Source of the DNA: an uncultured Saprospiraceae bacterium
GTDB taxonomy: Bacteria; Bacteroidota; Bacteroidia; Chitinophagales; Saprospiraceae
Assembly: GCA_937934275.1 (NCBI GenBank)
Contig: CALHAM010000041.1
Location: 32,182 to 96,181 of the forward strand
Direction of reading: 5' to 3'
Length of the DNA stretch: 64,000 bases
Shown here: piece after piece, positions 58,738 through 64,000 of the stretch
How the letters are laid out: the number at the start of each line of letters is the position of its first letter
Numbering within the stretch: the stretch's first letter is position 1
Notes under the pieces: generated by a model
Seen by the model: the letters and a program-made list of their open reading frames with translations, nothing else
Told to the model about the DNA's origin: nothing
Database searches by the model: none
Translations under genes and position numbers: made by a program

Positions 58738-59820
58738 ATGAAAGAAATCTCATTCAGCGCGGGTCATCACAAAGGGCATGCGGTCTTGTTCATGCGCTTT
58801 GAGTATGACCGGGCACTCCTTGAGAAAGTCAAAGGACTGGCCGGCGCCCGATGGAGCCGTTCGCAAAAGGCTTGGTATGTGCCGGATACCGCCTCGTACC
58901 GGGCGATGTTTGGCCTGACGAGCCAAGCTGAAGGCCCGACGCCTGCTGCCTTGCCGGACATTGCCCCGATCAACCAAACGGCACTGTCATCCTTCACATC
59001 AGCACTGCAATTGAAAGCATACAGCCCGAACACCCTCCGAACTTACCGCAACGAATTTGTTCAACTGCTTCGGTACATAGGTCAGACGCCTGTGGATACC
59101 CTAAATCCCGAACAACTCCGCGCCTATTTTTTGTACTGCGTCAGGGAGTTGAAGTTGTCGGAAAACACCCTGCACAGCAGGATCAACGCCGTAAAGTTTT
59201 ACTTCGAGCAGGTGCTGGCTCGAGAGCAGATGTTTATTCAGATACCTCGGCCCAAGAAAAAGGCCATGTTACCCAACGTTCTGGCCATTGCACAAGTAGA
59301 ACGGCTTTTTTCACAACTGGAGAATCTGAAACACAAGACGATGTTGTATTTGGCCTATTCGGCCGGCTTACGAGTGAGCGAGGTGGTGAATTTAAGGGTA
59401 AAGGATATCCATTCAGCCCGCATGGCGATCAACATCAAAGGCGCCAAGGGCAAAAAAGATCGAACGGTAGCCTTGTCGCAAGGCATACTGGCGTTGTTGC
59501 GCAAGTACTATATTGCCTACAAACCCCAGGACTGGCTATTTGAGGGTCAGCGCCCAGGCAGCCCGTACAGTACGCGCAGTTTGCAGCAGATTTTCAGGCG
59601 AGCCAAAACCGCTGCCGGAATTTTACAGGAAGTCACGTTTCATAGCCTGAGGCATAGTTATGCCACACACTTACATGAGGCCGGTACCGACATCAGACTG
59701 ATCCAGGAACTTTTAGGGCACAACGACATCAAAACCACGCTCCGCTACACCCACGTCAGCAACAGAACTTTGGAAAGCATAAAAAGCCCGTTTGACTATC
59801 TCAACCTAAAAAATGAATGA
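58738..59820 (+). CDS. Tyrosine-type site-specific recombinase/integrase (non-IntI)
   Basis: SAM-like core-binding domain (LQLKAYSPNTLRTYRNEFVQLLRYIG) and catalytic R (SAGLRVSEVVNLR), HSLRHSYATHL, LGHNDIKTTLRYTH; ends IKSPFDYL. Confidence 0.94.
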   Translation: MKEISFSAGHHKGHAVLFMRFEYDRALLEKVKGLAGARWSRSQKAWYVPDTASYRAMFGLTSQAEGPTPAALPDIAPINQTALSSFTSALQLKAYSPNTLRTYRNEFVQLLRYIGQTPVDTLNPEQLRAYFLYCVRELKLSENTLHSRINAVKFYFEQVLAREQMFIQIPRPKKKAMLPNVLAIAQVERLFSQLENLKHKTMLYLAYSAGLRVSEVVNLRVKDIHSARMAINIKGAKGKKDRTVALSQGILALLRKYYIAYKPQDWLFEGQRPGSPYSTRSLQQIFRRAKTAAGILQEVTFHSLRHSYATHLHEAGTDIRLIQELLGHNDIKTTLRYTHVSNRTLESIKSPFDYLNLKNE

Positions 59821-59826
59821 GCTTTA

Positions 59827-59902
59827 GTCGTACTTTTTGTATTGTCAAGGGCAACAATACAAAAAGTACGACAAAAGTTTCGTATATTTAAGAGTTATGC
59901 CT
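59827..59902 (+). repeat. attI-like site: 18-bp perfect palindrome plus cassette junction GTTATGCCT
   Basis: GTCGTACTTTTTGTATTG (59827-59844) / CAATACAAAAAGTACGAC (59855-59872), 10-nt spacer; GTTATGCCT at 59894-59902 is the reverse complement of AGGCATAAC at 60602-60610. Confidence 0.6.
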
Positions 59903-59945
59903 CACCCTAAAAGACGACACCTTAACATTAAAAAGACTTTGAAAA

Positions 59946-60575
59946 ATGGAAAATTTTGACCGCAAAAAGCATTGGGAAAATATCTATCAGACAAAAGAAC
60001 TAAAAGAGGTTAGTTGGTTTCAGCCGATACCAGAAACTTCATTGGACTTCTTTAAAGAATTCAACGTGCCGACAACTGCAAAAATAATTGACATTGGCGG
60101 TGGCGACAGTTTTTTAGTTGACCATTTACTCGACTTGGGTTATCAAGACATTACAGTTCTCGACATTTCAGCGACTGCCATTGACAGAGCAAAACAACGA
60201 CTTGGAGAAAAAGCGAAAAATGTAAAATGGATAGTTTCAGATGTAACGACATTTAAGCCGACAGAGAAATATGACTTTTGGCACGACCGAGCTGCATTTC
60301 ACTTTTTGACAGACGAGCAAGAAATTTCAAACTACCTGGAAATTGCTGAAAAAAATATAAACTCGACAGGTGTTTTAGTAATCGGGACATTTTCGGAACA
60401 AGGACCAAAAAAATGTAGCGGAATAGAAATCAAACAATATTCGGAAACGACAATGACCGACCGACTGAAAAAGTTTTTTGAGAAAATTAAGTGTATAACA
60501 GTTGACCACAAAACACCGTTCGACACCATTCAGAATTTTGTTTTTTGCAGTTTCAGAAAGTTACAAACGGCTTGA
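59946..60575 (+). CDS. Class I SAM-dependent methyltransferase (cassette 1)
   Basis: AKIIDIGGGDSFLVDHLLDLGYQDITVLDISATAIDRAKQRLG. Confidence 0.9.
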   Translation: MENFDRKKHWENIYQTKELKEVSWFQPIPETSLDFFKEFNVPTTAKIIDIGGGDSFLVDHLLDLGYQDITVLDISATAIDRAKQRLGEKAKNVKWIVSDVTTFKPTEKYDFWHDRAAFHFLTDEQEISNYLEIAEKNINSTGVLVIGTFSEQGPKKCSGIEIKQYSETTMTDRLKKFFEKIKCITVDHKTPFDTIQNFVFCSFRKLQTA

Positions 60576-60601
60576 CACGACACGAGAAAATAGAAGGGCG
60601 A

Positions 60602-60743
60602 AGGCATAACACGGGTTTGGCAAAAGTGGCGGTTCAGTGCTCCGCAGACACATTTGTGGTTAATCAAAGTTTGGTTATCCGCATCAACATTTGTGGTGAA
60701 AATCGCCACCTTCGCCAAGCCCGAAATCGTTGGCAGTAATGCT
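60602..60743 (+). repeat. attC-like recombination site 1
   Basis: Left edge AGGCATAAC; stem CGGGTTTGGCAAAAGTGGCG (60612-60631) pairs 17/20 with CGCCACCTTCGCCAAGCCCG (60704-60723); right edge GTTGGCAGTAATGCT (60729-60743). Confidence 0.7.
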
Positions 60744-60770
60744 ACTACACCACACACCCTTAACTGATAA

Positions 60771-61730
60771 GTGAACAACTTTCTGACATTTCAGAGCGAC
60801 CGAGACAACTTTTTAATTAAATTTGAAAAAATAACGACAGAAATAATGGTAGAAAATACAACTATAAATAATTTGGTTTTAGAGGACTTGGTCGGCTACA
60901 TTTCAAAAAATGGAGTTCAGCGGAGCATTAAACCCGTTTACAAAACGGACGATTTTGCTCTTTACAATGACGACAGTTTAGAAGTAATGAACCGTTTTCC
61001 CGACAATTACTTCGATATGATTTTTGCTGATCCGCCATATATGCTTTCAAATGACGGTTTCACTTGCCAAAACGGACGAATGGTAAGCGTGAACAAAGGA
61101 AAGTGGGACAAATCGAACGGCTTTGAGGATGATTTGTATTTTCACGAAACTTGGATCAAAGAATGTAAACGAGTTTTGAAGCCTGAAGGAACAATTTGGA
61201 TTAGCGGAACATATCACAGCATTTATCAATGCGGTTTTTTGCTTCAAAAACTTGGATTTCATCTTTTAAACGACATTACTTGGTTTAAGCCAAACGCTTC
61301 ACCAAATCTTTCTTGCCGATTTTTCACAGCATCACACGAGACTATTTTGTGGGCAAGAAAAGACAAGAAAGCAAAACATTACTTCAACTATGAAGCGATG
61401 AAAAACGGACGTTTTCCAGAAGACAACATTAAAAAACCAGACTCGCAAATGCGCAGCGTTTGGAGCATTCCGACACCTGCACCAAGCGAAAAAATATTTG
61501 GCAAACACCCTACACAAAAACCATTAGCACTTCTTAAACGAATTGTTTTAGCATCAACAAAACCTGGCGACATCATTTTTGATCCATTTAACGGAAGCGG
61601 AACAACCGGAATTGCTTCAACAATAATCGGTGAGAGAAAATACATCGGTTGCGATTTAAACAAAGATTATATTGACTTAACGATTAAGCGCTATGAGGCG
61701 TTAAAAGCAAACAAAGGATTATTTGAATAA
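60771..61730 (+). CDS. Site-specific DNA-methyltransferase, DpnA/M.DpnII-type-like (cassette 2)
   Basis: FADPPYMLSNDGFTCQNGRMVSVNKGKWDKSNGF...APNLSCRFFTASHETILWARK...HPTQKPLALLKRIVLASTKPGDIIFDPFNGSGTTG. Confidence 0.92.
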   Translation: MNNFLTFQSDRDNFLIKFEKITTEIMVENTTINNLVLEDLVGYISKNGVQRSIKPVYKTDDFALYNDDSLEVMNRFPDNYFDMIFADPPYMLSNDGFTCQNGRMVSVNKGKWDKSNGFEDDLYFHETWIKECKRVLKPEGTIWISGTYHSIYQCGFLLQKLGFHLLNDITWFKPNASPNLSCRFFTASHETILWARKDKKAKHYFNYEAMKNGRFPEDNIKKPDSQMRSVWSIPTPAPSEKIFGKHPTQKPLALLKRIVLASTKPGDIIFDPFNGSGTTGIASTIIGERKYIGCDLNKDYIDLTIKRYEALKANKGLFE

Positions 61731-62338
61731 TGGTAACGAGAGTAATAGCAATTCGCAATCTTGAAAAATTTATAGGGCAAGACCTATCAGAGTTAGCGAA
61801 GCAATACGGCATAACAACATATAAAGACGGCAAACAAAATAAAGGTTGGAAAGGCTTGACTTTAGAACATTTAGCAGGACTTTCTAACGACAACAAACAA
61901 GCACCAAACGGACTTGGATTTGAACTAAAATCAACTGCATTTTACAAAGTAAAAGGCGAATGGACACCCAAAGAAACATTTGCTATTACAATGATTAATC
62001 CACAAAATTTAATTGACACTCCATTTTTCAAAAGTCATTGTTGGGAGAAATTGAAATCGCTTGTTTATTGTGCAGTTTCTTGGAACGGCAAACACAATGA
62101 AAAATCCGAGTTGTTAAAAGTTCAATCATTTGACTTTTTGGAGAGTGATACGCTAATACAAGAAATTCAAGCCGACTATGAGTTTATCCGTCATAAACTA
62201 AAAACGCAAGGTTTTGCTGCTTTGACAGGTAAAGACGGCAAATGGATCCAAGCAAGAACTAAAGGGGCTGGACACGGTTCGATTAGCAGAGCGTTTTACG
62301 CAAGGAAAGCATTAATAAAGGAAATTATCAAGCTGTGA
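61730..62338 (+). CDS. MutH/Sau3AI- or MvaI/BcnI-like restriction endonuclease (cassette 2)
   Basis: GWKGLTLEHLAGLSNDNKQAPNGLGFELKSTAFYKVKGEWTPKETFAITMINPQ...FFKSHCWEKLKSLVYCAV; ExK motif; overlaps the MTase stop. Confidence 0.8.
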   Translation: MVTRVIAIRNLEKFIGQDLSELAKQYGITTYKDGKQNKGWKGLTLEHLAGLSNDNKQAPNGLGFELKSTAFYKVKGEWTPKETFAITMINPQNLIDTPFFKSHCWEKLKSLVYCAVSWNGKHNEKSELLKVQSFDFLESDTLIQEIQADYEFIRHKLKTQGFAALTGKDGKWIQARTKGAGHGSISRAFYARKALIKEIIKL

Positions 62339-62346
62339 GAATAAGA

Positions 62347-62496
62347 AGCACTACTGCCAACAGCGTGTATAAGAAATAGCGGGTTTAGTGCTAATTCAAA
62401 CGTCAGAGCTTTCAATAAAAGTCAGTGCCAAACTTAAAGTGAAGTGCTTTTAAATCCGCTACTTCTCATACACGCAAAACGTTGCGCCGCAATCCC
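62347..62496 (+). repeat. attC-like recombination site 2
   Basis: Left edge AGCACTACTGCCAAC (62347-62361), reverse complement of the cassette-2 start with 14/15 match; stem GCGTGTATAAGAAATAGCGGGTTTA (62363-62387) pairs 22/25 with TAAATCCGCTACTTCTCATACACGC (62451-62475); right edge GTTGCGCCGCAATCCC (62481-62496). Confidence 0.7.
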
Positions 62497-62499
62497 GAA

Positions 62500-62660
62500 G
62501 GGATTGCGGCGCAACGGCCGCTCCGCTTCGCGGACAGCCGTACGCCGCCCCTTCGGGACTGCGTAAAACTGTCCGCTTGGCAAAATTCCAAAAAAATTTT
62601 TCGCTTCGCGAAATTTTTTGGAACTTCGCCAAGCGGAGCGGTCGTTAGCAGTCATGCTAT
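62500..62660 (+). repeat. attC-like recombination site 3 (end of an ORF-less mini-cassette)
   Basis: Left edge GGGATTGCGGCGCAAC (62500-62515), exact reverse complement of 62481-62496; stem AACGGCCGCTCCGCTT (62513-62528) pairs 15/16 with AAGCGGAGCGGTCGTT (62631-62646); right edge GTTAGCAGTCATGCTA. Confidence 0.65.
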
Positions 62661-62743
62661 AAAAGACAGTAGAGTCCAGAAACTACTTAAAAAAACGGGG
62701 CGAACCAGAAAAGCCATACGAGTATGATTTTAAATGAAAGAAA

Positions 62744-63799
62744 ATGAATACCAGAAACAAAATTGCAAGTGTCTTTATGGTATTGTGCTTAGTTTTAGGT
62801 TACAGTATAGAATCAAGAGCATGCACAAGAGTGGTCTACAAAGGACCTAATAACACGGTTTTAACAGGAAGGACTATGGATTTTTCCATAGAAATACCTG
62901 CCAATCAATGGATATTTCCCCGTGGAATGAAACGAAACGGTGAAGTTGGTAAAAACTCCATAGAATGGGTTTCCAAATATGGTAGCATTGGTGTGAGCAC
63001 ATGGGATATCGCTATTGCCGATGGCATGAACGAAAAAGGTTTGGTAGCTAACTTACTTTGGTTGGTTGAATCAGACTATCCAACTTTCAATAAGGAAGGT
63101 GACAGAAAAGGGATGGCCATTTCTCTTTGGGCACAATACGTTTTAGACAATTTTGCAACTGTTGCTGAAGCCGTTGAAGAATTAAGTAAAGAATCATTCG
63201 CAATAGTTTCTGATTTTATTCCCGGCACTGACAAATTTACCACAGTGCATTTATCCATTTCGGATGCCACTGGCGACAATGCCATTTTTGAATACATCAA
63301 AGGTAAATTGGTGATACACCACGACCCATCATACACAGTGATGACCAATGACCCTCCATATGAACAACAGTTGGCAATAGCTAAATATTGGGAAAATATT
63401 CCGGGTAAAACTTTTCTTCCAGGTTCAGTAACAGCAGCGGACCGTTTTGTAAGAGCTTCTTTTTTCATTAATTCCATACCGCAAACGGACAATACAAGAG
63501 TAGCAGTAGCAGGTGTTTTTAGTGTGATTAGAAATGTATCGGTACCATACGGGTTCGAAATTGAAGGATTCCCAAATTTATCCACAACACGTTGGCGCTG
63601 TGTCGCAGACCAAAAAGAATTGGTGTATTACTTTGAAACAGCACTCACGCCAAATACATTTTGGGTTGACCTTAAGAAAATTGATTTCAGTGAGAAAGCG
63701 GATGTACGAAAATTGGATTTATCAGATAATAAAACCTATGCTGGCGAAGTTTCGGCAAAATTTATAAAGTCAAAACCATTTCAATTTTTAGGATTATGA
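62744..63799 (+). CDS. Linear amide C-N hydrolase / choloylglycine hydrolase family (cassette 4)
   Basis: Signal peptide then CTRVVYKGPNNTVLTGRTMDFSIEIPANQWIFPRG; Ntn-hydrolase N-terminal Cys context. Confidence 0.9.
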   Translation: MNTRNKIASVFMVLCLVLGYSIESRACTRVVYKGPNNTVLTGRTMDFSIEIPANQWIFPRGMKRNGEVGKNSIEWVSKYGSIGVSTWDIAIADGMNEKGLVANLLWLVESDYPTFNKEGDRKGMAISLWAQYVLDNFATVAEAVEELSKESFAIVSDFIPGTDKFTTVHLSISDATGDNAIFEYIKGKLVIHHDPSYTVMTNDPPYEQQLAIAKYWENIPGKTFLPGSVTAADRFVRASFFINSIPQTDNTRVAVAGVFSVIRNVSVPYGFEIEGFPNLSTTRWRCVADQKELVYYFETALTPNTFWVDLKKIDFSEKADVRKLDLSDNKTYAGEVSAKFIKSKPFQFLGL

Positions 63800-63863
63800 G
63801 CCAAAGTTTGATTAAAAAATTTGAAGTAGGTGTATTCTATATTCTTTCAGCAATAATTGTGTT

Positions 63864-64000
63864 GGGTAGTGTAATTAGTTGAGTGATTTAATATCTTTGT
63901 GTCAAATTTTTTTGTCATGGTAACAGAACATAAATGCTGTCACAAATGCGGTTCCGAGCACATCGTCAAAAATGGCTCGAATGGTTCGGGAAACCCCAAG
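63864..64000 (+). mobile_element. Left end and transposase N-terminus of an IS1-family element (truncated by window)
   Basis: ATG at 63917 encodes MVTEHKCCHKCGSEHIVKNGSNGSGNPK, the IS1 zinc-finger N-terminus; candidate terminal repeat begins GGGTAGTGTAATTAGTT at 63864. Confidence 0.75.

Follow-up and report, generated by a model that had tools for sequence, protein, structure and literature searches.

Downstream of a tyrosine recombinase gene of an uncultured Saprospiraceae bacterium lies a long perfect palindrome, and the question that this locus raises is whether the palindrome marks the point at which new gene cassettes are inserted. The locus belongs to a stretch of 64,000 nucleotides, referred to here in its full length as the window. 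The palindrome stands where the preliminary description had placed it, with arms GTCGTACTTTTTGTATTG (59827-59844) and CAATACAAAAAGTACGAC (59855-59872) around an N10 spacer (59845-59854), and the offsets given there, 6 nt after the recombinase stop codon (TGA, 59818-59820) and 21 nt before the first cassette junction, are exact. The perfect arms measure 19 bp (59827-59845 and 59854-59872) around an 8-nt loop and, with one mismatch, extend to 24 bp (59822-59845 and 59854-59877). Among the perfect inverted repeats of the 64 kb with loops of 3-30 nt, three have arms reaching at least 14 bp; the palindrome is the longest of them, and none occurs in three shuffled windows. A search of the genome with up to two mismatches returned no second match to the arm sequence. 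Rfam miRNA matches on the palindrome, with scores under the gathering threshold, are hairpin artefacts.

The comparisons described below indicate that the region 59822-59896 is very probably the attI of an integron-like cassette platform, in which the adjoining recombinase would join cassettes at G^TT. The platform appears to work like an integron because a conserved attI lies by the recombinase and is followed by cassettes with covarying attC sites, whose terminal repeats mostly pair with their own cassette start. The elements of the insertion region are as follows:

58738-59820, + strand: platform tyrosine recombinase, 360 aa, with R-K-H-R-H-Y catalytic motifs, an N-terminal extension (about residues 1-76) and no IntI insertion
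59822-59845, + strand: palindrome left arm, an inverted copy of the putative recombinase-site motif, limited to the four closest loci
59846-59853, + strand: palindrome spacer CAAGGGCA, 8 nt
59854-59877, + strand: palindrome right arm, containing the conserved box AAAAGTACGACAA (59862-59874)
59878-59896, + strand: candidate attI core TTTCGTATATT-N5-G^TT, with the putative crossover at 59894/59895

The probable attI region and its putative crossover point

Homologues of the recombinase were taken from public genomes, and the DNA 3′ of their stop codons was compared. In all 15 close homologues AAAAGTACGACAA (up to 3 mismatches) begins 32 nt before G^TT and is followed by TTTCGTATATT-N5-G^TT. Six of these 15 carry a second, direct copy of AAAAGTACGACAA at -86, and four carry an inverted copy, the palindrome left arm, at -69; several Cytophagales have extra direct copies in place of the left arm. 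A GTT-anchored motif learned by expectation maximization (EM) from 85 homologues (ttgCgtATATa-N5-GTT) describes a degenerate form of the site, which scores above the 99th percentile of shuffled controls 3′ of the recombinase in 54 of the 85 (leave-one-out); in some homologues, for example L015, L025 and L034, the site was not found. The conserved attI unit, as delineated by this comparison, is the right arm plus the core, and the right arm of the palindrome is in this sense part of a conserved putative attI. Consequently, the expectation that the palindrome would be conserved beside homologous recombinases is largely borne out: it holds for its right arm, in both the close and the degenerate sets, and fails for the palindrome as a whole, which is restricted to four close loci. 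With regard to a Pc promoter for the cassettes, TATATTT in the core resembles a -7 box of Bacteroidota.

A search of 399 genomes of the phylum with the 33-nt attI motif gave matches in three. One of these genomes, G579, has six attI-like sites, none of them near a recombinase. Isolated sites of this kind with a GTT behind them, in recombinase-free surroundings, were recorded in G579 and G571 (L077 at 5687 and 7165, L078 on the - strand, L079, L080 and L081); two of them come after what seems to be the end of a katG gene, and in four the preceding 260 bp or so are similar to one another.

The crossover would take place at G^TT, between 59894 and 59895, as judged from the comparison of relatives. 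In particular, the recombinase of locus L014 is 96% identical to that of the window and lies in the same chromosomal neighbourhood, with syntenic upstream DNA. The two loci are 97, 95 and 90% identical in three successive stretches up to the G, the last value being partly lowered by a flipped spacer, and 63-70% identical past the GTT. L036 and L037 split from the window as L014 does, at GTT. Searches of plasmids and phages with the recombinase gave as best plasmid matches proteins of about 43% identity from Chryseobacterium, and two such plasmids share a common site up to AAGACATATAAACAA|GTT and continue with different cassettes. Moreover, a motif-blind boundary finder, which relies on an attC stem and on complementarity between the GTT start and the AAC end of one cassette, chose this GTT in the window and in nine close or moderately close relatives. 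Equivalent sites were chosen in more distant relatives, where the cassette boundary of each homologue is a prediction. Since some match was also obtained in 9 of 38 upstream and 6 of 32 shuffled controls, it is the positions chosen, rather than the hit rate, that carry weight. The preliminary description had proposed the palindrome as a candidate attI or core site and as a possible insertion point. The region does appear to be of the attI type; its core, however, is the separate conserved box TTTCGTATATT beside the putative crossover, and insertion at the palindrome itself is contradicted by the G^TT, which sits 17 nt past the extended right arm.

Cassettes and attC sites

Downstream of the putative crossover, cassettes terminating in covarying attC hairpins are arranged head-to-tail:

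59895-60729, + strand: cassette 1, class I SAM methyltransferase ORF (59946-60575)
60604-60735, + strand: attC 1, R'' GCATAAC, R' GTTGGCA
60730-62481, + strand: cassette 2, DNA N6/N4 methyltransferase (60855-61730) and MutH/Sau3AI-like endonuclease (61730-62338), probably a restriction-modification pair
62355-62487, + strand: attC 2, R'' TGCCAAC, R' GTTGCGC
62482-62644, + strand: mini-cassette 3, geneless
62509-62650, + strand: attC 3, short-stem type
62645-64000, + strand: cassette 4, truncated at the end of the contig, with DUF805 RNA and a choloylglycine-hydrolase-family ORF (62744-63799)

A search for attC sites by hairpin alone found 32, against none in shuffled sequence. As a pairing partner, the AAC-side repeat (R'') favours the beginning of the cassette to which it belongs over the beginning of the next (24 versus 4, P = 1.8e-4), which is the pairing predicted by excision as a circle. 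In an alignment of 16 sequences, all 15 predicted pairs of the stem show changes on both sides. A covariance model, trained on 16 of the sites that it reports, describes 45 attCs in 21 loci; its matches in the recombinase loci lie downstream on the recombinase strand in about 40 cases and elsewhere in 2 (both in L025), and the first 58.7 kb of the window contain no match. Over the source genome, matches above background are confined to two attCs in the window, both of them members of the training set. Thus, two functional marks of an integron are found at this locus: an attI adjoining the recombinase gene with insertion at G^TT, as suggested by comparison, and cassettes ending in attC sites with AAC/GTT ends, a structure-conserved stem and an R'' complementary to their own start.

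Besides the restricted left arm, the homologues in which no site was found and the attI-like sites of G579 with no recombinase beside them, one further observation counts against the platform reading. Among 91 genomes of the family, carrying this attC type was not associated with carrying a homologue of the recombinase at E≤1e-60 (18/43 versus 16/48, P = 0.52); therefore, many attCs reside in genomes without a detected close recombinase. Array lengths are limited by the many homologue contigs that stop soon after the recombinase: in 40 homologue loci, contigs mostly end within a few kb downstream of it, as would be expected if the arrays were repetitive.

Some further observations concern the content of the arrays. 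The mini-cassette (about 165 bp, window 62481-62649) recurs twice at 92-93% identity in the array of another genome, G290 (L082, 2990-3160 and 8348-8539). The DUF805 RNA (RF03081, 75.6 bits) occupies 62664-62732, just inside cassette 4, where the next gene is of the choloylglycine-hydrolase family and not DUF805; a role of this RNA as a general cassette leader was rejected, as it was not found in 11 other loci. At the contig end (63918-64000), an apparent IS1-type transposase gene begins, seemingly right after the cassette 4 gene. Group II intron sequences are present in or near two arrays (L083, 15698-17440; L036, 5557-5634) and are reminiscent of the introns that target attC sites.

The recombinase and its likeness to known systems

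The GKGxKxR and HxLRH motifs lie 65-68 residues apart in the platform recombinases, whereas the distance is 73 in Xer and each canonical IntI measured has 107, which means that the IntI insertion of about 40 residues near patch III is missing. The TIGR02249 model matches with 184 bits against a cut-off of 265, and the match is split at the insertion; the best family model, NF040815 ('site-specific tyrosine recombinase/integron integrase'), is narrowly missed (212.5 against a cut-off of 220). In a tree of limited sampling and long branches, canonical IntI are monophyletic (100/100) and the platform recombinases form a separate group (88/95), both being apart from Xer. By these sequence features, namely the missing insertion and a position outside the IntI clade, the platform recombinase is not an IntI. 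Its predicted structure (pLDDT 81), in which domain placement is unsure because of a pTM of 0.52, contains an extra N-terminal alpha/beta domain. Compared with the PDB, this model best matches IntI4 of Vibrio cholerae (2a3v, E = 3.5e-17) and then XerA, which is also the best sequence match among solved structures (4a8e, 5hxy). The likeness to IntI4 has clear limits, as a stretch of 23 residues of the query faces 65 IntI4 residues, identity is 28% and the TM-score only about 0.6.

Absence of the IntI insertion is shared with XerA and Xer (NF040815; PDB 4a8e, 5hxy). Xer proteins act on one dif site, to deal with chromosome dimers, whereas the platform recombinase heads a cassette array. A Xer/dif site, consisting of two inverted arms around a 6-8 nt centre as the sole site, was rejected for the palindrome: the geometry is similar, the pair of arms is not conserved, and the breakpoint lies outside the palindrome. 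The likeness to integrons is broader, and includes a tyrosine recombinase beside a single insertion site, the G^TT crossover, cassettes with R''-L''-L'-R' hairpins and additional repeats in attI, as in attI1 with its DR1/DR2 (PMC8946536); in archaeal integrons, attI is located downstream of intI (PMC9668308). As far as sequence can tell, the platform would thus match integrons feature by feature in function. In contrast to integrons, the platform has a recombinase that is devoid of the IntI insertion, branches outside the IntI clade and possesses an N-terminal domain; the spacers of its attC sites are uneven, in most cases 1-3 nt behind AAC and 4-6 nt ahead of GTT; and its attI sequence is unrelated. 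The IntI insertion has been described as essential for integron function (PMC8138268) and is used for recognising IntI (PMC9024848, PMC9668308). Since it is absent here, the platform lies outside the strict, IntI-based definition of an integron. No description of such a platform was found in the open-access literature that was searched.

Of 200 genomes sampled from the phylum, 58 contain canonical IntI-like genes matching across the insertion, a share above that suggested by the cited survey, and one of these genomes (G029) belongs to the same family as the source; a plasmid search meant for diverse IntI was dominated by IntI1. With such genes at hand, a canonical IntI might move the cassettes in trans, leaving the adjoining recombinase with some other job. 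This is very improbable, as the source genome yielded no IntI-like gene at E≤1e-50, the order recombinase-site-GTT is conserved over dozens of homologues, and 15 canonical IntI loci of the same phylum contain neither the present attC type nor the present attI core. According to the favoured mechanism, instead, the recombinase encoded just upstream would bind the AAAAGTACGACAA box in the right arm together with the TTTCGTATATT core, synapse the double-stranded attI with the folded attC of a circular cassette, and join the cassette at G^TT.

The left arm and the meaning of the platform

The left arm is lineage-specific, being absent outside four close loci, and for this reason the palindrome is confined to them. 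Inverted repeats ahead of the site, often of unrelated sequence, are significant at P≤0.05 in 17 of 57 loci, where about 3 would be expected; in other words, they recur at this place without being universal, and the inverted repeat was rejected as a universal feature of the site. Furthermore, the spacer CAAGGGCA is inverted in the window with respect to the three nearest relatives (L014, L036 and L037/L082), with reverse-orientation matches of 91-98% over 52-53 bp; the spacer region is the reverse complement of that of L014 at 98% over 53 bp, the flip being less exact in L037/L082.

In the proposed mechanism, the left arm would most likely be a further site for binding the recombinase, in inverted orientation, and would correspond to the direct copies in several Cytophagales and to DR1/DR2 in attI1. 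This is the least certain step, with a chance slightly short of even. Alternatively, the left arm could be a neutral by-product of template switching, by which the right-arm site was copied back inverted once in the lineage, the same process keeping the arms identical and flipping the loop. Template switching has been proposed to make and maintain perfect hairpins, with loop inversions among its traces (PMC8794818), and the flipped spacer of the window fits well. The survival of the left arm across recombinases of about 80-100% identity, and the recurrence of unrelated inverted repeats at the same place in distant relatives, speak against this explanation, which appears unlikely, if still a serious competitor. 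Slightly less likely again is a role of the palindrome chiefly at the level of RNA, where it would form a terminating or stabilising hairpin at the 3′ end of the recombinase message, with only the right arm and the core belonging to attI. The predicted RNA fold, 1 nt past the stop codon, is very stable (-29.8 kcal/mol, z = -8.3). On the other hand, the palindrome had been judged not to be an obvious terminator, and this judgement was borne out by the absence of a T-run and of any terminator-like call at this position. In addition, the right-arm sequence is kept in homologues without the left arm and an arm mismatch in L037 is uncompensated, so that it is the sequence, rather than the pairing, that is conserved, which speaks against a purely RNA role.

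The IntI-specific domain is the basis on which integrons are defined and detected by software. The locus described here suggests, with somewhat better than even confidence, that Bacteroidota possess a widespread second class of integrons. Its recombinases would form a lineage devoid of the IntI domain that is regarded as essential for integron recombination, and the rules of its attI and the type of its attC would be peculiar to it. Should the platforms prove active, the capture of cassettes by Bacteroidota would have gone largely unnoticed, and the IntI insertion would not be needed for folding-dependent attC recombination. For a direct test of the insertion requirement, the necessary sites can be taken from the attI alignment and from the attC model.
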